45,524 nt of DNA from a virus, in the IMG/VR virus record IMGVR_UViG_3300033145_000223, positions 1-45,524 of that record; one strand, given 5' to 3'. Made by a program: the position numbers and the translations under genes. Every line of letters starts with the position of its first letter. Within the stretch, counting starts at the first letter, position 1. Of the stretch, positions 6,371 to 38,530 are shown piece by piece. A model generated the notes under the pieces. It searched no databases and was not told the origin of the DNA. It saw only the letters and a list, made by a program, of their open reading frames with translations.

Positions 6371-8536
6371 TTACGCCATGTTGCAGAACATCCCTCTCCA
6401 GTCGAGGGCTTTCGCAGCGACGCTGTGCTTGATCTTGAATTTCTCGCCGTCTGTGTCCCAGTCAAGCTGTGTCGAGAACTGCGGAGTCTCGCGGCCCTGC
6501 AAGAACCCAACCTCGACCGTGCTGACAGGCTGCGTGTGCGGATCGCACATCAGATACCATTCCGAGGCGCTTGAAAGCTCCGGCAGGTCGATCACGGTGT
6601 AATTACCCTGGAATGTGTTGGCCTCGTGTCCGTGGTTCGCAACCGGCGAATACTCGGACGACATAAGCTTCATCGCAGTGCGCTTGATGTTAGGCGGCAC
6701 GACAAGTAGACTCGGCATCAGCGCAAGTTTCTCGTCTGCAAGCCCGGTCTGCGTCCTGATTGCAAGCTCGGCAGCCGTCAGCGTAGTCTCACTGATGACA
6801 GCCGCAGCCGCGGATTCGTTAGCATGGGTCGCTTGGTCAAACAGCGGATTGCCGTCAGCCATGTTCGCATTTGCGTTCAGGATCGCCACGGCTGTAACAT
6901 CCTCAAGCCGTTTCGCAGCGACACCCATTGCCGCCGGAATCCGGGAGAATGCGTCCATGTCATCGTTGATAATCGACTCCTCGGTCATAAAGAGACCGAG
7001 CCAGTAGATTGCGAGCGCATAGACTTCCTCTGCGTCTGAAAGCGAGCCATAAGTTATCTCGCTACCTTCGGGGCGAAGCCGCAAATTGCCGACGGCTGAA
7101 AGCCGGATTCTATGGATCGTCTTGAAATCCGGCGCGACGCCGCGAGTACACCAGAGCGGCCACTGTGTCGGGTGTTCCATGTAGCTTGCGAGGAGCGTCT
7201 TGTTCAAGGCGTCCTGCAAGATATAATCGAAGTCGCTTGTGCTCATTGCGAGGTTGCAGCGTTGGCGCGCCACGTTCGGGCGAAGCATCATTTCCGCGAT
7301 TCCGCGATTGTCAAAGCCGTCCGTATGAACGCCGAGTGACTTGAAATATGCCCGGCCAATATCGACCAGACTGCGATTCTTGAGAGCCATCGCGCCGTTG
7401 TGCGGCTCCCTGATCTTGAGCTTGCCCCCTGCATCGAGGATCGGCGTTTTGGTGACCGGGTCAAGCGTGATAAGTCTGTTGTTGAACTTGAGCAGAATCG
7501 CGTCGCTGACCATCGTATCGAGACCTTCCTGCGTGCGGTCTGCACCGACCACGATACGCGGATTCGCCTTCTCCAGTTCGACCAGCGCGGACAGTTTGAT
7601 GTCGGTCTCCGAGAGTTTCCGGTTTTCCTTGCTTGCCGTAACCCACTCCGCAGAGAGTTTGTAGGTCGAAGCAACATCGGCGATGAAGGAAAGACGCGCC
7701 TCGGCTTCCTTCGCGCCGGCTTCTTTCGCGGCGGCAAGGCGTGCCAGTTCTTCTTTGGCCACGTCGTCGGGGATCACTTCCGGGTCGTCGATCACTTCCG
7801 GCTCTTCGACGAGCGCGGCAAGGCGTTTCACCTCTGCGAGCTTGTCGGCTTTCAGGCCCGCGATGAAGGTCTCCATTTCGGCATCGGTCGCGTCCTTTTT
7901 CAGTCCGAGTGAAATCAGGTATTCTCTGGCTTTCATTTCTTCGTCCTCCAAATTGTTGTCTGCGTTTTCCGTTTTTGTTGAAAATAATCCGTCAGGATTC
8001 GCCGCGCCCTTGCCAACCCAGTCCACCGACTCAAGAGATTTGAGACGACCGACAAGCGGCGAGTCCGGGTTTTCCTCCTGATATTTTTCCATTTCAGGGA
8101 TGTCGAAGAAAAAGGCGATTGACAGTCCGAGTGCCGAAGGATCGTCCTCGACTTCATCTTCAAGCCATGCGCGGACATTTCCGAGGCCGGGGAGCTTATC
8201 AGCGCCCTTCGAGAAGTGAAAGTCCGCGCGGATTTTATCGCCGTCTCGATATGAGTTTTTCATCCTGCCGAGCTTCGTGCCAAGTTGCTCGAAATCCTTC
8301 ATCCAAGATTCGTGCTTGTAAAAAGATAGCACGCCTGTATCCGATGCCGAGGTCATGGCTAAAAGTACTTGGTCAGACATTGTTTGATCGACAAGGAAAT
8401 TATGCCCGCGTGCTTCCCCCTCTGTGATGACCGATACTCCTGTGATTATGCCCTTCTCGCGGTCAACAACGGATTTAGAATCCGATTGTAATTTCACCAT
8501 GAAATGCTGCTTGCCTTTGAGGTTCTTTATTTTCAT
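6371..8536 (-). CDS. prohead protease / major capsid protein fusion
   Basis: The protein has 721 residues. The first ~195 resemble prohead protease domains (FMVKLQSDSK start, then VSVITEGEARGHN, FYKHESW, and a segment near 125-150 with SALGLSIAFFF). A charged, Glu/Ala/Lys-rich helical stretch (about 200-320) would act as scaffold or delta domain. Residues about 325-721 resemble the major head subunits of Mu gpT-type and HK97-like capsids. It overlaps the portal gene end by four bases. Fusions of this kind are known in many metagenomic siphoviruses; the protease would cleave itself from the capsid domain during maturation. No separate protease, scaffold or capsid gene exists nearby, which supports the assignment. 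Confidence 0.8.
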   Translation of the reverse strand: MKIKNLKGKQHFMVKLQSDSKSVVDREKGIITGVSVITEGEARGHNFLVDQTMSDQVLLAMTSASDTGVLSFYKHESWMKDFEQLGTKLGRMKNSYRDGDKIRADFHFSKGADKLPGLGNVRAWLEDEVEDDPSALGLSIAFFFDIPEMEKYQEENPDSPLVGRLKSLESVDWVGKGAANPDGLFSTKTENADNNLEDEEMKAREYLISLGLKKDATDAEMETFIAGLKADKLAEVKRLAALVEEPEVIDDPEVIPDDVAKEELARLAAAKEAGAKEAEARLSFIADVASTYKLSAEWVTASKENRKLSETDIKLSALVELEKANPRIVVGADRTQEGLDTMVSDAILLKFNNRLITLDPVTKTPILDAGGKLKIREPHNGAMALKNRSLVDIGRAYFKSLGVHTDGFDNRGIAEMMLRPNVARQRCNLAMSTSDFDYILQDALNKTLLASYMEHPTQWPLWCTRGVAPDFKTIHRIRLSAVGNLRLRPEGSEITYGSLSDAEEVYALAIYWLGLFMTEESIINDDMDAFSRIPAAMGVAAKRLEDVTAVAILNANANMADGNPLFDQATHANESAAAAVISETTLTAAELAIRTQTGLADEKLALMPSLLVVPPNIKRTAMKLMSSEYSPVANHGHEANTFQGNYTVIDLPELSSASEWYLMCDPHTQPVSTVEVGFLQGRETPQFSTQLDWDTDGEKFKIKHSVAAKALDWRGMFCNMA

Positions 8537-11546: not shown

Positions 11547-14500
11547 TTAAATTAGGTGGTCAAAAGACTTCTGCTCCCATGCGGTAGATTTCTTTTTCTT
11601 CTTCTTCGGTATCGGCTTTGGATTCTCAAGCTCTGCAATCTGACGCTCCCGGAATTTCTGGAAATGACCGGCTTGAGGCAACATGTGGACAAACAGCATA
11701 TATGCCGCCGCAACCTGGTACACCTCGCAGTTTCCGCAGATTACGACCTTGCCGTTTCTCCTGACAATCAAAGTTCCATTCGGAACAGTGGCACAATAAA
11801 CCATCCCGTCATAATGCACGTTCTTGAATATCGGTCGATGAATCTTGTCTTTTCCGTATCTGTTGAGATGACATTGTTTTGTGAGTTTTCTGGATACATG
11901 ATACTGGTCAACTGTGTTTTCCCCATATCGACCTCGTATATTATATGGTTTCGCTTTTCTTGTTTTCATCACTGTGGCAGAACCGACCTTCAAAAACAAT
12001 TCCTGAATATCATCGGCAAGACGCTTGCTCACCGTAGCGTACCATTCACGCCCATTATCTACCCAACCATCTCCAGCGATTGCACCCCGAAGATATGCTT
12101 CAATCACATTCGGGGAAGCGTCTTTAATCCACTGTGGAATAAACTTCGTATATTTATCTCCGAGTTTCCTTACAAGATTATACGCTTGCTGCCGTGAAAT
12201 CACAAAACCTCTGTCAGTTTCATTGAATCCCCACGGCATTTTTCCTAATACCCTCCGTAGAACTTCTCTTCCTTCACCTTCATTTTGATAAATCACAACA
12301 CGCCTTTTTATGCTTGACGGTTGCGATCTGTGAATTATTGACTGGCAACAACCTTCTGCGATATACCAGCCAAGAAATTCAGCCAAATGCTCCGCGTCCA
12401 CACGTTTTTTTTCATCATATCGAGTAGCGGGAAGCTCGTAATACTCAACTCCGGTTCCAATCCAATTTGAAGCAGTTTTTAATCGGCTGTTCTTTGTCAA
12501 CTCACATGCTTTTCTGATATTGATATTACCCCGCTGGCTCAAACATACCATTCTATGGTTAGGGGTTACAAGCATATCAAGACGACTTCCACGCTCACCT
12601 CCGATCTTCACCATATCACCGCAATGCCACTTACTTATGATTTCTGATGGTTGCTGATACTCAATAAGGTCTTTTTCGATATTCACGGTCGCAAGAATGT
12701 CGTATTTGTCTATGTTTTTGAAATACTTCCACCCTCCGCGAGTAAGCACTTCGGTTTCCTCGTCATAGCAGTCACGATAGTCGATACGGACACTCGCTTC
12801 CTTCGGAACCCATCGCGGCTCCTGCTTTCGACCTACCGGAACCTTCTGCATATTGCCCATGTGCAGATTATACTCGATTGATTTGCCCTTTTCCGAGCGA
12901 TTTAGATGCCACATTTCCGCCTCGTCGGTATCCCCCGTACCAACGGTGATAAGATCGGTTAATACATCCTGGCACTGAAGAACGTCAATCCACCATAAAT
13001 ACAGGTTCGGGGCGGTCTTTTTCTTCTTTATACGGCGATAACGGCGGTCTTTTCTCGCATTTTGCTCGTTAGCATACTCCCTACCGCGCCAAAACGGGAG
13101 GCCTTCCTTTGAACTCGCCGCGCCTTTGATAGCCAATACCCGCCTATCATCGACACGTTGCACCCATTCGTACACCTGGGTCGTCCTCGATTTCTCCTCG
13201 TCCTTTAGTTTCGTGCCGCCCGAATCGATTAAAAGCAGTTCAACGCGCATCGGATGAAGCCGCCCGTCCTCGATAGGCCATTGATAGTTCAATATCTTCG
13301 ACCGCACGTCCTCGAATGAGTGGAGGATGCCGTGATAGACACGTTGACTCCGCATACCCGCGCCCCACGCCCGAACTACAACGTAAAAATGATCGTGCTG
13401 TGTATCGACAGTCGCAATCAGCTTTTGACCCCACAGCGGCACGATCCCCTCGTCGTGTGTCGCGCATTTCACCTTGTCGTCGTAAACAGACGCCTTGACA
13501 TCCTTGAGCAAGTCCTCGAATGGTAATCCGAGGGTCTCCGTTCGGAATGTGTACTGCTTGTGTCGGTCTCCAAGCGCCTCGACATAAAGAACCGCGATAT
13601 TTCGCCATGTTTCCCACAGGCAATAAAGTCCGCCACACTGCAAGCCGAGCGTAGTGCCTTGCGGCCACTTCTCGACAGCCTCCGCGTCTGTGATTTTGCC
13701 GTCTAAAGTGCCCCATTTACCCGCCTTGACCATCGCATCTCGCTCTTTTTCCTCGATTCGTCCACCGCATTCCTGGCAAATGTAGTACGTTCCCTGGTCT
13801 TTTATCCACTCAATAGTCTCTTTTCGGGATTCGTCCTTGAGCGAAAGGTACTTTAGCTGCTGAAATATGAGCGGAATCCGCTTGCCACACCGCGGACACG
13901 GGACTAAAAAGTAGAGTTGATACGTACTCTCGGTGAACAGCGTGTAAATCTGGCCTGTACGGAGCGTCGGTGTACTGATATTGATCTGCATCTTGCGATT
14001 TGTGTAGGTCCGCATCCGGGTCCAGGTCCGGCCAACCGGATTTGGTTCCGCGCCGCCCCATTCTTGGAATTTGTCCACCTCGTCACAGATAACACGCCTC
14101 ATAGGGTTTCCCGCGGTAGACGCCGCGGAGCCGGACCACATGAGATGCAGGATGAACGAATTATTGAGCTTGATCTGCGATTTCTGCATGTCCGTCATTT
14201 TCGCCGGCAACAACGGCTTGAGAATCGGCAAATATCGCATCATCGGAGCCACACGGTTGCTGATAAAGAACTTGCCGGTCTTTTCATCTGGGAATGCGAC
14301 GCCCATCGGATCAGGTTCACGGGACGCCCAATACGCAATCAGGTTAAGAGCAGCCCGCGTATATCCCATCTGCCCGGCCTTGACTGCCGCAATCCGCTCG
14401 ACACCGGGAGCAACACACAAATCCATAAGCCCGCGGAGATATGGCGTGAGTTCATTTCGCCACGGGCCGGGATGCGCGGACTGATCTTGCGGGAGAACGA

Positions 14501-14594
14501 GATACTCTTCCGCCCACTCGGAGGGCTTGAGCGGCGGCGGGACGTGCCACGCCTCGCGCTCTGGTGGTGTGAAAATATTAATTCGTGGGATCAT
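11547..14594 (-). CDS. terminase large subunit (GpA family) interrupted by an intein
   Basis: The 1015-residue precursor contains a 668-residue terminase split by a 347-residue intein (residues 609-955). The ATPase half has a Walker-A-like KAGQMGYTR (72-80) and a Walker B RRVICDEVDKF (166-176). A zinc pair CPRC...CQEC lies at 233-276. The nuclease half has TVDTQHD (about 395-401), LLLIDSGG (453-460) and YRD just before the intein, rejoined to CEVYQVAAAYM after splicing, the GpA-type C-terminal signature. TerL cuts concatemers and drives DNA into the prohead through the portal. The C-terminus is lysine-rich. Start ATG 14594 has AAGGAA upstream and overlaps the previous gene by 17 bases. Confidence 0.92.
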   Translation of the reverse strand: MIPRINIFTPPEREAWHVPPPLKPSEWAEEYLVLPQDQSAHPGPWRNELTPYLRGLMDLCVAPGVERIAAVKAGQMGYTRAALNLIAYWASREPDPMGVAFPDEKTGKFFISNRVAPMMRYLPILKPLLPAKMTDMQKSQIKLNNSFILHLMWSGSAASTAGNPMRRVICDEVDKFQEWGGAEPNPVGRTWTRMRTYTNRKMQINISTPTLRTGQIYTLFTESTYQLYFLVPCPRCGKRIPLIFQQLKYLSLKDESRKETIEWIKDQGTYYICQECGGRIEEKERDAMVKAGKWGTLDGKITDAEAVEKWPQGTTLGLQCGGLYCLWETWRNIAVLYVEALGDRHKQYTFRTETLGLPFEDLLKDVKASVYDDKVKCATHDEGIVPLWGQKLIATVDTQHDHFYVVVRAWGAGMRSQRVYHGILHSFEDVRSKILNYQWPIEDGRLHPMRVELLLIDSGGTKLKDEEKSRTTQVYEWVQRVDDRRVLAIKGAASSKEGLPFWRGREYANEQNARKDRRYRRIKKKKTAPNLYLWWIDVLQCQDVLTDLITVGTGDTDEAEMWHLNRSEKGKSIEYNLHMGNMQKVPVGRKQEPRWVPKEASVRIDYRDCYDEETEVLTRGGWKYFKNIDKYDILATVNIEKDLIEYQQPSEIISKWHCGDMVKIGGERGSRLDMLVTPNHRMVCLSQRGNINIRKACELTKNSRLKTASNWIGTGVEYYELPATRYDEKKRVDAEHLAEFLGWYIAEGCCQSIIHRSQPSSIKRRVVIYQNEGEGREVLRRVLGKMPWGFNETDRGFVISRQQAYNLVRKLGDKYTKFIPQWIKDASPNVIEAYLRGAIAGDGWVDNGREWYATVSKRLADDIQELFLKVGSATVMKTRKAKPYNIRGRYGENTVDQYHVSRKLTKQCHLNRYGKDKIHRPIFKNVHYDGMVYCATVPNGTLIVRRNGKVVICGNCEVYQVAAAYMLFVHMLPQAGHFQKFRERQIAELENPKPIPKKKKKKSTAWEQKSFDHLI
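11730..12770 (-). other. intein with LAGLIDADG homing endonuclease, inside TerL
   Basis: The intein starts at Cys609 (block A: C-YDEETEVLTRGGW) and ends at Asn955 (ATVPNGTLIVRRNGK then ICGN), followed by Cys956 as the +1 nucleophile. Block B is VTPNHRMV with the expected T..H. Two LAGLIDADG helices are visible, LAEFLGWYIAEG (737-748) and YLRGAIAGDGW (834-844), so the homing endonuclease looks intact and the element may be mobile. The penultimate residue is Gly rather than the more common His. The insertion point follows Asp608, a probable active-site residue of the terminase nuclease. Confidence 0.92.
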
Positions 14595-34057: not shown

Positions 34058-35083
34058 TTAAAATAATTGCCCTTGCGATTTATGCCGCTTGAACCGCGCT
34101 GTCGCGGCCTTGTGATAGCCCTCGTCGATCTCGTGACCGATCGCGTTGCATCCAACATCATAAGCCGCGATAATTTCCGTACCGCTACCCACGAAAGGAA
34201 TCCATACGCGATCGCCTTCTCTCGTCGTCGTTGTGATTAAGTCGCGGGTTAATTTCATGGGCTTGATTGTGTCGTGTGAGTATTTCTTTGTTAAGTGACT
34301 TTCCTGCGAATATCTCAATACATCGGTTAGTTTCAGGGTGTTGTTGAACGGCCTGCGAAGCTCCTCGTACTCCTTACGAAGCTCCTCGTACTCCTTACGA
34401 AGCTCCTCGTACTCCTTACGAAGGTACTCGTACTCCTTACGAAGGTACTCGCCATTAAGGTATTCGCGGATTTTCAAATATTGATCTTCCGTAATTACAT
34501 TGAATCCCTTGAGCCAATTACTGACACACCCCGTAAGACCACCAGTTTTACTCGGAAATAATGCCGCTATTTCTTTATTCGTTACGTTAGCCCTTTTGAA
34601 TTCATCTCGAAGATATTTTGCAAATGGAGAACGTGGTCGAATGTGTTCTTCCATAACTCTTTCGTGCCCTGTCTGATCCCATTCTTCTGGCTCTGTTCCG
34701 TTGGAATACATGAGAAGTCGCTCTGTTACGGGCGCAAAACATCGGAACATTTCTACACCTTTATTTGTTTGCCGGTCCACAACCCACCATACCATCGAAT
34801 TCTCAAGACAAAACAACCGATCGAGAATGACCTGTGAATACGCAATCTTCTTCGCGTGCCCCCACCAAAACAGAGTTCCATTGTCGGCTAACACCCGCTT
34901 ACATTCTGTCGCCCATTTCTCCACGTCTGCAAGATACTCGTCAAAGGAATCCCACACCCAATCAAAACACCCCTTGACTTTATAATATGGCGGGTCAGCA
35001 ATTATTAAAGAGATCGACTTTGGAGGGATTTCATTCTCCATGCAATCGCCGTGGATTATCTTGATGGTTGCTCTCGCGGTCAT
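34058..35083 (-). CDS. DNA (cytosine-N4/adenine-N6) methyltransferase with coiled-coil insertion
   Basis: 341 residues. DPPYY at 30-34 (motif IV) precedes FVGSGTE (about 297-303, SAM-binding motif I), the order of the beta class of amino-methyltransferases. Between them is an inserted region: a helix-turn-helix-like part (NVTNKEIAALFPSKTGGL, about 166-183) and then a heptad repeat, EYLRKEY / EELRKEY, at 212-244. The repeat could mediate dimerisation, and the HTH-like part DNA recognition. Phage enzymes of this kind usually lack a restriction partner and none is seen here. Confidence 0.85.
   Translation of the reverse strand: MTARATIKIIHGDCMENEIPPKSISLIIADPPYYKVKGCFDWVWDSFDEYLADVEKWATECKRVLADNGTLFWWGHAKKIAYSQVILDRLFCLENSMVWWVVDRQTNKGVEMFRCFAPVTERLLMYSNGTEPEEWDQTGHERVMEEHIRPRSPFAKYLRDEFKRANVTNKEIAALFPSKTGGLTGCVSNWLKGFNVITEDQYLKIREYLNGEYLRKEYEYLRKEYEELRKEYEELRKEYEELRRPFNNTLKLTDVLRYSQESHLTKKYSHDTIKPMKLTRDLITTTTREGDRVWIPFVGSGTEIIAAYDVGCNAIGHEIDEGYHKAATARFKRHKSQGQLF
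34361..34453 (-). repeat. 21-bp tandem repeats inside the methyltransferase gene
   Basis: Four nearly identical 21-base units and a partial fifth encode the heptads of the coiled coil (EELRKEY). The first three units are identical in DNA. Since the unit is a multiple of three, copy-number change would alter coiled-coil length without a frameshift. Confidence 0.9.
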
Positions 35084-35330: not shown

Positions 35331-35396
35331 AGTGCTCGGTAGGATTCTAACCTACATCATCCCTGCCGGTCGCTCTAACTTTTGAGCTACGAGCAC
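35331..35396 (-). tRNA. tRNA-like gene with shortened anticodon arm
   Basis: On the minus strand there is an acceptor stem GTGCTCG / CGAGCAC (extended by two further pairs), TA at 8-9, a D stem GCTC / GAGC with an 8-base loop, and a T arm GTAGG TTAGAAT CCTAC. Between the D and T arms only 16 bases remain, where about 22 are normal, and they do not form a 5-bp stem with a 7-base loop. The molecule looks like a tRNA without a usable anticodon. No CCA is encoded. Confidence 0.55.
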
Positions 35397-35400
35397 TTAT

Positions 35401-35468
35401 GAGCGGGAAGGATGGAGATGTTTTTACAAGGCCTCTACTCCACGGCTAATGCCTGTCTCATCCCGCTC
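35401..35468 (-). other. hairpin between ribozyme and tRNA-like gene
   Basis: GAGCGGGA and TCCCGCTC form a perfect 8-bp stem around a 52-base loop, directly next to the tRNA-like gene. No T run follows. It is part of the structured RNA cluster 35331-35765. Confidence 0.5.
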
Positions 35469-35526
35469 AATTTCTGCGAGTCGCTGAAGGCGTGCCCCCT
35501 GGTGGACAGTTATTCCCCGGCTGTAT

Positions 35527-35590
35527 CCACTCCGCGCGACGGTCACTGCTGACCGTTTCGGCCTTCGCCTCATCAGGCGATAAGAGGTGG
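35527..35590 (-). ncRNA. type I hammerhead ribozyme
   Basis: All conserved core bases are present on the minus strand: CTGATGA, stem II GGC-GAAG-GCC, GAAA, then stem III ACGGTCA / TGACCGT (7 bp, loop GCAG) and GTC. Stem I is CGC / GCG, an internal loop, then CCAC / GTGG, leaving it open at the outer end, which defines type I. Self-cleavage is expected after the C at 35538, leaving a 2',3'-cyclic phosphate and a 5'-OH. It lies between two tRNA-like genes in the early transcript. The GAAG loop and the internal loop of stem I could form the tertiary contact usual in active natural ribozymes. Confidence 0.88.
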
Positions 35591-35651
35591 CGGGGCTTAC
35601 GTCCCCGCCTTTCCGGGACAGATGTTGCCTGCACAGGGGCACAGTGGCAAC
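35589..35651 (-). other. two hairpins upstream of the ribozyme
   Basis: GGCGGGG / CCCCGCC (35589-35609) is a perfect 7-bp stem with a 7-base loop touching stem I of the ribozyme. GTTGCC / GGCAAC (35624-35651) is a 6-bp stem. Part of the first could instead pair with CCGGGG beyond the ribozyme and lengthen its stem I, giving an alternative fold. Confidence 0.55.
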
Positions 35652-35693
35652 CCACGCCCTCAACGCTCGCATAATATTTTCAAAGAACAATGA

Positions 35694-35765
35694 GATAGCC
35701 GGTGGGACTCGAACCCACAACCGCAAGCGCGTACGCCAGTCCTCTACCAATTGAGCTACGGCTAT
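35694..35765 (-). tRNA. tRNA or tRNA-like gene, anticodon arm unpaired
   Basis: 72 bases on the minus strand: acceptor ATAGCCG / CGGCTAT, TA, D arm GCTC-AATTGGTA-GAGG (one mismatch), and a perfect T arm GTGGG TTCGAGT CCCAC. Spacing is normal, and position 33 is T, which would give anticodon ACG (Arg). The two sides of the anticodon stem, CTGGC and CTTGC, do not pair. It could be a decayed tRNA, or one that folds in another way. No CCA is encoded. Confidence 0.65.
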
Positions 35766-35890: not shown

Positions 35891-35924
35891 GGTCGATGCC
35901 CCTTATTATCGGCTCCCTCGTCAG

Positions 35925-35969
35925 CCCCGGCTCGCCATGCCAGAGGACGCCCGTGAGGGCGTTTCGGGG
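35925..35969 (-). ncRNA. structured RNA, possible three-way junction
   Basis: CCCCG / CGGGG closes the element. Inside are ACGCCC / GGGCGT with a four-base loop and a second weaker stem CTC / GAG. It starts directly at the stop codon of the 36-residue gene. No T run follows, so a terminator is unlikely. It may stabilise or process the mRNA. Confidence 0.45.
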
Positions 35970-36128: not shown

Positions 36129-36156
36129 AGCATATCACATAATATAACATTGTCAA
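36129..36156 (-). promoter_or_regulatory. early promoter with extended -10
   Basis: TTGACA (36156-36151), 16-base spacer, TATGCT (36134-36129) with TG one base before it (extended -10). Transcription should begin near 36122 and cover the whole early operon. Confidence 0.75.
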
Positions 36157-36199: not shown

Positions 36200-38530
36200 A
36201 CCGCTGATATAGGTGTGTAGTATATAGCGGTTTATGGGTTGCGATATATTAAAGACTGTGAGTCTTATAAATGTGAGAATAAGTCTCACATGCAACGCTG
36301 AAAATTTCTCATATCTTGCGTGCGCATCAGAGGTATAGCACCGGGGCGGGATAGACGGGGTTATACCCTCACAAAGCCGTATGGGGTATACGTTCCAATA
36401 TGCGCACGACAGGATTTATTTTTGATCGAAAAACATCCAAGTTAGCGTATTTACGGACATCGTTTTCAACAGATTTCCCGTCCTTGCATCTGACATTGAC
36501 GCATAGCACCAGGGCGGCTCTGGGAGGGGATGCTGCCCTTTAGCCCTACTGCCGCATACATTCCAGCAAGCAGGCAACAATATATTTATTTGCGACCAAA
36601 ATCTTTTTGAAAACATATCTTGACACCATATCCAACTGAAAACCGGGCGCTTTGTAATCGCCTATATACCAGCGAGTTACAGGGCGATATTGAGATATTA
36701 CACAGCCATAATTTATTCCTACCGCACAAAAGCTGGAACGTAGCACCGGGGCGGCTTTGATGGTGTATACCCCTCTGGAAGCCGCATGGTTGCTATAGGT
36801 CAATGTCGCAAAACATTTCTTTTTTCTTGCAGGCAACGAGTGCCAGTGTCGTGATCTTCGTATAACCCCGCTCGATTTTCAGCATTTCAGGCAACCAATA
36901 TTCGATATTGAGGCGTGTTTTGACGCCCCGAAATCGGATGTATACTGGTAGCCGTTCTAAATGGGTTTCCTGTTTCGCGGTGTCTGTTTCAAAGTTGGCA
37001 TGGAGCATGTCGTCGGGCTGAAATCGGCTTGGAACGTAGCTATATCACCATCCATTTTTTGACTCGGAATATTTACGTTTTTATATTTACGTTTTCATAT
37101 TTCTTGTGGCACACCAGCACCCTCCAGACCCGCATAAACAGTGCGTCCAAGCGGTATAAAGTTTTCGTTGATCGCAAAACCGAAAACGTTTTTGTTTTAG
37201 AATGTTTTGAAAAGCGTGTTCTGAATGCTTTTGAAACAAAAACGTTTTTGGTCCTGTGTTGATTTGAAAACACACCCCTCTGAAACCCGCATAAACAGTA
37301 CGTGTAGAGGGTGCATGGTGGTCAAAGGAATTCTAAAAACGCAAAAACAAAAACGTTTTTTTGGCCGCCCAATTCCTGCAATGGTGATATAGCTGCGTTC
37401 CAGAGGTTTTTCTATAACGCTGTCTTGAGAGTTCCTGAATTTTTTCTGACATGCTGAATACTCAATACCGCTGGAAACGGCCACTGGTATACGTTTGATT
37501 TCCGACCTTGAAATATGGTCAAAATAGCGGTATTCAGGCGTCTAAAATCGCATTATTTACACAAGACTGCTTTGAAAAACTGGCTTTTGTAGACCGTATT
37601 TGAGTGTCGGTTTTCAGGAGTCTAAAACGGATGTACGCTATTGCTTGATTCCAGCGGCTTTTTGAAATGTTGACGTCTGAAAACAATTGGAATATCGAGA
37701 TTTCATAAAACCGAAATACGCTTGGGATGTAGTAATATCACCATTCCACAGGTTGAAGTAGAATATTTATGTTTTTGTTTTTGCGTTTTTGTAATTGCTA
37801 CGACACATTGACACCCGCTACACCCGCATGGATACACGTTTCCAGAGGCATCGAGTTTTATTCAATCGCAAAACGAAAAACATATTTGTTTCAAAAGTTT
37901 TCAGAATCTCACTAATCGCCTGAAACGGTCGCACTTTCGGGATAACCGAACAGAACATTTTCAGTTTTAACATATTGCAAAATGCTTTTCCTCACGTTTT
38001 TATTTTTCCGCTTCTACCATCGGTACGTAGCGCCGGGGCGGGTTCGCAGGGGGTATGTGCCTTACAACCCTTACGGGCAGTACGTTCCAGCATACGCGCG
38101 ACAGCAATTTATTTTGACCGATAACACGGGGGATTATCACGGTTTCAAGATCGTTTTACGTCAAATAACCACACGGGGTGTCTGACATTGTGACATAGCA
38201 CCAGGGCGGCTCTGAGGGTGGTGGCTACCCCCCACACTTACAGCCGTATAGGTTCCAGCTTTTCCACGACAGGATTTATATTTGACTCAAAACAGATTGA
38301 GATAGCAGATTTCCGGGCCTTTCACGGTCGAATATCGACGCCGGTATAACCCGGTATATACATTAAGTTATAGCTGTTTATTTGCGAATAACGCGAGTGG
38401 AAATAAATCGCGCTGTGAACAACCCAAGATGTATATTCAGGGCGGCTATGGCGGTATACGACACCCTCAAAGCCACGCCATTGCTGTGGGTCAACGACAG
38501 GCAATAGGTCACGATATTTACAATGAGCGC
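36200..38530. repeat. non-coding region with many degenerate copies of a dispersed element
   Basis: About 2.3 kb without a credible gene. The word TAGCACC.GGGCGGC occurs near 36334, 36504, 36741, 38024 (GCGCC variant) and 38194, with a partial copy near 38431. In four cases it is followed about 55 bases later by a CGTTCCA or GTTCCAGC word, then CGACAGGATTTAT or a variant. Between them lie sequences such as AAAACGTTTTTG and its reverse, related to the 39-bp repeat at 24.0-24.6 kb. In one frame several copies read alike (APGR, then YVPA, then RQ), but stops interrupt most of them. Confidence 0.7.

Follow-up and report, generated by a model that had tools for sequence, protein, structure and literature searches.

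The window analysed here is the complete 45,524-base IMG/VR record of a tailed phage, in which terminase, portal, DnaB, exonuclease VIII and tape measure proteins were identified. Searches for close relatives through its RecT-like, methyltransferase and portal proteins returned distant ones only. Read along the minus strand, a promoter candidate is followed by a 36-aa ORF, a type II hammerhead (HH-II), a 29-aa ORF, a tRNA-like gene and a type I hammerhead (HH-I), and after HH-I come a second tRNA-like gene, a ribbon-helix-helix ORF and a DNA methyltransferase gene. The features of the locus are:

36129-36156, minus strand: sigma-70-like promoter candidate TTGACA-16-TATGCT, only suggestive, such sites being equally frequent in shuffled sequence
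36080-35970, minus strand: 36-aa ORF
35907-35969, minus strand: HH-II, type II hammerhead with a predicted cut at 35946/35945 (Rfam RF02276, 47.7 bits against a cut-off of 37)
35890-35801, minus strand: 29-aa ORF, taken directly from the sequence
35694-35765, minus strand: tRNA-like 1, anticodon stem unpaired (Rfam RF00005, 41 bits; ARAGORN found no anticodon)
35535-35579, minus strand: HH-I, type I hammerhead with core and stems complete
35401-35468, minus strand: hairpin GAGCGGGATG...CATCCTTCCCGCTC in the centroid fold, in the interval before tRNA-like 2
35331-35396, minus strand: tRNA-like 2, anticodon arm truncated (RF00005, 47 bits; not called by ARAGORN)

The first-pass annotation had placed HH-I between two tRNA-like genes with odd anticodon arms, and this was borne out. 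Both genes carry acceptor, D and T arms, and neither has a paired anticodon stem with a 7-nt loop. The acceptor and T stems are perfect in both structures, as is the D stem of tRNA-like 2, in which we read the elbow pair G19-C56 as apparently replaced by T19-A56. We infer that the tRNA-like structures have been selected for recognition by processing enzymes and not for decoding. Candidates for anticodon-arm-truncated tRNAs elsewhere turned up in three contigs, all lacking a hammerhead, and were set aside.

The two hammerheads of the window

HH-I contains all of the invariant core (CUGANGA, GAAA and NUH), as had been claimed for a type I hammerhead with every core base in place. From 35579 to 35535 on the minus strand it reads CGC CTGATGA GGC-GAAG-GCC GAA ACGGTCA-GCAG-TGACCGT C^GCG, with 3 of 3 pairs in the open stem I. 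Stems II and III, described earlier as closed, are indeed so (3/3 and 7/7 pairs), and the predicted cut, between 35538 and 35537, agrees exactly with the earlier position of 35538; the strand was corrected to minus. A descriptor requiring all three stems returned HH-I and HH-II as the sole hammerheads in the window, and about one match per type in 400 shuffled windows.

The first-pass annotation had also proposed a search with the Rfam type I model (RF00163), which gave no match to HH-I even at an E value of 10. The same model was silent at 14 other phage loci whose type I hammerheads are intact, so its miss of HH-I says little, and we dropped it as arbiter of the motif for this insensitivity (the missed loci include L033, L067, L085, L093, L107, L116 and L135). 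A covariance model built from 32 phage hammerheads scored HH-I at 25.9 bits (E 1e-4) as its only match in the window, and its sole match in 423 kb of other phage DNA was itself a hammerhead; because the training set was gathered with a pattern modelled on the HH-I core, this model is not fully independent. Judged from the sequence, HH-I was confirmed as a genuine type I hammerhead motif for which self-cleavage is predicted.

The earlier description of stem I held only for its inner half. The stem is open and its three inner pairs are present, but the outer half (CCACCTC/GAGTGG) is probably unformed, because GTGGAT is part of a hairpin, E1, that is conserved in every homolog described below. 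The internal loop proposed in stem I for a tertiary contact between loops I and II would compete with E1 and is probably not real, as GTGG is E1's in every homolog. As evidence on the other side, nearest-neighbour folding preferred a rival hairpin in HH-I (-27.6 vs -20.6 kcal/mol or weaker), and the energy models, which ignore pseudoknots and ribozyme tertiary structure, also favoured a different overall fold.

HH-II was overlooked in the first-pass annotation, as were the larger RNA and the circular permutation described below. It fills the gap between two small ORFs, starting directly behind the stop codon of the first and stopping shortly 5' of the second, and for this reason a role earlier suggested for HH-I, the separation of the tiny genes from the operon, suits HH-II better. 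None of the 29 records searched contained a type II hammerhead, and the single type I hammerhead among the loci (L012) lacks the RNA element found in the window.

Type I and type II core patterns each gave at least 120 matches in IMG/VR. Among the matches listed, 110 of 131 type I pattern matches had all three stems, phage hammerheads frequently stood in series (two to five on one strand), and few lay near tRNAs; clustered prophage hammerheads in series have been described before (Perreault et al. 2011, PMC3088659). Since RF00163 reports no intact type I hammerheads in the tested loci, phage hammerheads are probably much undercounted.

Several of these hammerheads had neighbours of their own. 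Type I cuts coincide exactly with tRNA 5' ends in three large phage contigs: at tRNA-Tyr in L036 (5866/5865, minus strand), at two tRNA-Tyr or Tyr-like genes in L286 (6524/6525 and 6673/6674, plus strand) and, in L277 (12258/12257, minus strand), one base upstream of tRNA-His, the expected place of the extra G-1. Stem I is built from the tRNA's own 5' strand in all three contigs, and these look like ribozyme-made tRNA 5' ends. In L070 (6020-6224), a hammerhead lies immediately 5' of a YrlA Y-RNA-like gene (RF02553), and in L284 (~590-660), L290 (~2190-2260), L291 (~7460-7530) and L292 (~4760-4690, minus strand) the RNA downstream of the hammerhead has a GTGGTGT motif that recalls Y RNA.

The conserved RNA around HH-I

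Comparison with homologs indicated that HH-I belongs, as a domain, to a larger structured RNA that is conserved. We call this RNA E RNA; it occupies about 35670-35476 in the window. Its parts are:

35476-35670, minus strand: E RNA in the permuted order E2 - hammerhead - E1, with homologs in nine other lineages and covarying helices
35624-35651, minus strand: E2 hairpin GTTGCC/GGCAAC, whose loop holds the PK1 3' strand (35642-35636)
35613-35617, minus strand: PK2 3' strand CCCGG, partner 35520-35516 in the E1 loop
35589-35609, minus strand: P0 capped hairpin GGCGGGG-acgtaag-CCCCGCC, between E2 and HH-I
35502-35530, minus strand: E1 hairpin GTGGAT/GTCCAC with the conserved loop GCCGGGGAATAAC
35492-35498, minus strand: PK1 5' strand GGGGCAC, partner 35642-35636
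35476-35491, minus strand: P3 helix 3' strand, partner 35670-35656, 15 bp with one bulged A

The homologs were reached through L293, a 39.9-kb viral contig met in a search for tRNAs followed by hammerheads, in which 17 bases 3' of the hammerhead (CAGCCGGGGAATAACTG) are identical to those 3' of HH-I. BLAST searches started from L293 and the window and continued from every homolog extended the family, and ten lineages, window included, carry the E RNA core. Homologs occur in Enterobacter phage SDFMU_EhYP (EhYP), the Pectobacterium/Dickeya phages Pappous, Taid and Setonix, Acinetobacter plasmids, an Aquitalea plasmid with terminase genes, the Arthrobacter phages Constance and Karkharias, Mycobacterium phage Gaia, M. 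abscessus prophages and Microcystis phage Mwe-JY26. E RNA was also present in E. coli prophages, in 15 of 5,426 genomes; four of the five copies inspected lie between antiterminator and holin genes, and one lies near terminase and portal genes. The element is unnamed in all homolog annotations inspected, and Rfam models did not match its core, either in the window at E values up to 1 or at seven homolog loci at E values up to 0.1.

Other candidates were rejected. The E2 pattern gave two matches in the genome collection that lacked the rest of the element and were taken as chance, and 793 bacterial genomes from two phyla yielded three pattern matches, about the control rate. We did not count Streptomyces phage phiSASD1 or Mycobacterium phage Nebkiss, each with only one of the two hairpins (E2-like in the former, E1-like in the latter), nor a match inside an annotated gene of Achromobacter phage Axy09. 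The element is absent from PaP3, a phage with a published hammerhead variant.

The core of E RNA has two anchors. One is YGYGGA followed by the E1 stem, whose loop contains GGGGAATAAC; the other is CGTGG followed by the E2 stem and loop and then by ATCTNNCC. PK1 pairs the sequence after E1 with the E2 loop, and PK2 pairs the E1 loop with the bases after ATCT. Helices were assigned by rule at fixed offsets from the anchors (with two variants of the PK1 offsets) in 13 distinct sequences, and 316 of 325 pairs were kept: 78/78 in E1, 77/78 in E2, 88/91 in PK1 and 73/78 in PK2, where the window forms 5 of 6. When the 3' strands were shuffled among sequences 20,000 times, these totals were reached 0 (E1), 0 (E2), 0 (PK1) and 2 (PK2) times, figures that are not strict probabilities because the offsets were chosen after inspection and related sequences are non-independent. 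The ten representatives contain eight distinct E1 helices, ten of E2, nine of PK1 and six of PK2. As far as sequence comparison can tell, two hairpins and two pseudoknots are plainly kept by compensatory changes.

Circular permutation and the tRNA neighbourhood

In its encoded order, E RNA exists as two circular permutations. A ribozyme-first order (hammerhead, E1, P3 hairpin, E2) is found in EhYP and E. coli, Pappous, L293 and Acinetobacter, and an E2-first order (E2, hammerhead except in Microcystis, E1) in the window, Aquitalea, Constance, Gaia, M. abscessus and Microcystis. P3 of the window pairs 35670-35656 with 35491-35476 and is open-ended, and P0 (35609-35589) forms a capped hairpin, whereas in EhYP, P3 is the hairpin and P0 an open closing helix; this swap is what circular permutation predicts. 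P3 and P0 are less general than the core, and neither is evident in M. abscessus.

The predicted cut lies one base before YGYGGA in all copies with a hammerhead. Across the ten lineages, the hammerhead core is intact in seven, in which stems II and III differ in sequence and remain paired, broken in two (GAA to AAA in Acinetobacter, CTGANGA to TTGATAA in Gaia) and absent in one, Microcystis. In the M. abscessus copy, the first stem II pair is mismatched. The broken cores and the absence from Microcystis indicate that cleavage is not needed everywhere, and the overall pattern suggests that the hammerhead domain has been kept in most lineages and lost in some.

Most copies of E RNA adjoin tRNA genes. 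One M. abscessus prophage has it 1 nt 3' of tRNA-Ser, with its end just 5' of an annotated tRNA-Trp; in L293, it lies 43 nt after tRNA-Gly and 9 nt before tRNA-Ser. The distance is 9 nt to a following tRNA-Met in Pappous, 50 nt from a preceding tRNA-Asn in Acinetobacter and 65 nt to a following tRNA-Thr in Aquitalea; the copies in Microcystis and Gaia fall within tRNA clusters. There is no tRNA within 500 nt of the E. coli and EhYP copies. The annotated tRNA-Ser(cga) that adjoins the Gaia element (L303, 756-822) is only 67 nt long, with an apparent 6-nt anticodon loop.

Proposed role of HH-I and its alternatives

We consider it likely that HH-I is the self-cleaving domain that matures the double-pseudoknotted E RNA by one cut at a fixed junction. 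The established parts of this best explanation are the ribozyme motif, the covarying conserved core, the two permutations and the fixed cut position. In the window, E RNA is encoded as E2 hairpin, HH-I and E1 hairpin, with the ribozyme in the stretch that links the halves. The RNA would fold during transcription and HH-I would cut once, leaving a 5' half that contains E2 and ends in HH-I with a 2',3'-cyclic phosphate, and a 3' half that begins with 5'-OH GCGCGGA and carries E1. The halves would be held together by PK1 (7 bp), PK2 (5-6 bp) and, in the window, also by P3 (15 bp). In ribozyme-first homologs, the equivalent cut would remove a 5' leader and give an equivalent new 5' end, which for the E. 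coli copy is predicted to lie at GCGCGGAG. The tRNA-like structures appear to keep the parts read by RNase P and 3'-processing enzymes without an anticodon arm, and those flanking E RNA probably free its outer ends. We infer cleavage in the cell, a two-piece product and a processing role for the tRNA-like structures as the remaining parts of the explanation. The earlier suggestion that HH-I trims a small stable RNA came closest of the three roles proposed for it: HH-I is integral to a conserved structured RNA, within which its predicted cut coincides with a conserved junction.

A broader reading is offered tentatively: E RNA might represent a previously unrecognised class of non-coding phage RNA whose working form is bipartite. 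The hammerhead would nick a fixed junction, tRNA-like signals would free the outer ends, pseudoknots would join the halves and both permutants would yield the same mature object; its target may be the translation or tRNA machinery of the host.

It is improbable, although less so than the readings that follow, that HH-I, like HH-II, only splits a polycistronic early transcript into single-gene pieces and that E RNA is a separate matter. Transcript processing by clustered prophage hammerheads has been proposed (Perreault et al., PMC3088659), tandem same-strand hammerheads are common in phage contigs among the matches listed, and HH-II is flanked by two small ORFs. However, a convincing ORF directly 3' of HH-I is missing, and the position of HH-I is fixed within E RNA in unrelated phages despite differing neighbour genes.

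We would be surprised if HH-II and HH-I together released a 408-nt RNA (35945-35538) containing tRNA-like 1, possibly circularised. The two hammerhead permutations do place hairpins at the ends of this piece (HH-II stem I at the 5' end, HH-I stems II and III at the 3' end), but in no homolog is HH-II part of the element, the piece would hold just half of E RNA, its fold is no stabler than shuffled sequence (z -0.76), and an RNA ligase gene was not recognised among the proteins scanned. The earlier idea that HH-I helps to make a circular RNA found no support. The stretch of 208 nt that begins at the HH-I cut and runs through tRNA-like 2 was likewise not more stable than shuffled sequence.

The miss by the Rfam type I model and the different fold favoured by computed minimum free energy might be taken to mean that HH-I is a chance or dead motif, a hammerhead-like sequence that does not cut. 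We hold this to be very unlikely, given that a type I match arises about once in 400 shuffled windows, that the model drawn from other phages detects HH-I at E 1e-4, and that homologous hammerheads occupy the equivalent place in other phages with stems that have changed yet remain paired. Least likely of all, HH-I would free a tRNA 5' end, as hammerheads seem to do where they cut exactly there in L036, L286 (twice) and L277, but in the window tRNA-like 2 follows the cut at a distance of 141 nt, and the E1 half of E RNA stands between them.

Permuted tmRNA, whose permutants are processed by cellular enzymes, resembles E RNA in its natural circular permutation and its paired two-piece form, the latter by prediction in E RNA; it differs in that the E RNA core has no Rfam match and the E RNA cut is predicted to come from a built-in ribozyme. 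YrlA, GOLLD and ROOL are structured non-coding RNAs in phages, often near tRNAs, but E RNA is unlike them in size and motifs, and no Rfam match to them was found in the window or homologs. The clustered prophage hammerheads of Perreault et al. 2011 (PMC3088659) also combine phage-borne type I and type II motifs in one transcript; they flank protein genes, whereas HH-I holds a fixed position as a domain within a conserved RNA that is non-coding. Gut phages carry theta ribozymes, small self-cleaving ribozymes of phage tRNA clusters that are thought to aid RNA maturation (Kienbeck et al. 2024, PMC10879173). These belong to the HDV-like type and their cuts adjoin tRNAs, whereas HH-I is a hammerhead with a predicted cut inside a non-tRNA structured RNA. 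We also considered HRIMA RNAs (PMC10085705), which are almost all metatranscriptomic and, as far as the published text shows, are not E RNA.

The ribozyme class is already known, and the E RNA family is apparently undescribed: neither Rfam 15 nor the literature searched, which took in few subscription papers or bioRxiv preprints, contained a conserved phage RNA with two pseudoknots and two permutations in which a hammerhead is an optional domain. The purpose of phage hammerheads has been open since their discovery in hundreds of bacterial loci, and one of them now gains a specific, testable job: to mature a conserved RNA, which occurs naturally in two circular permutations, by cutting it at a fixed site. 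This RNA family, absent from Rfam 15, spans phages and phage-like elements of enterobacteria, Acinetobacter, mycobacteria, Arthrobacter and Microcystis, and several of its carriers can be grown and manipulated.

Other features of the window were also noted. In the DNA methyltransferase (34058-35083, minus strand), a run of LRKEYEE-type repeats separates two conserved parts. The terminase large-subunit ORF (11547-14594, minus strand) apparently contains an intein, and its C-terminal part matches families that are frequent intein carriers, among them thymidylate synthase, PhoH and ribonucleotide reductase. Diverged repeats of about 50-100 nt lie at 36336-36600, 36741-36800, 38028-38292 and 38438-38455, where long ORFs are absent; on the plus strand, several resemble APGRxRRGYxPxxPYGxYVPxxARQ and may be copies of a short coding unit.
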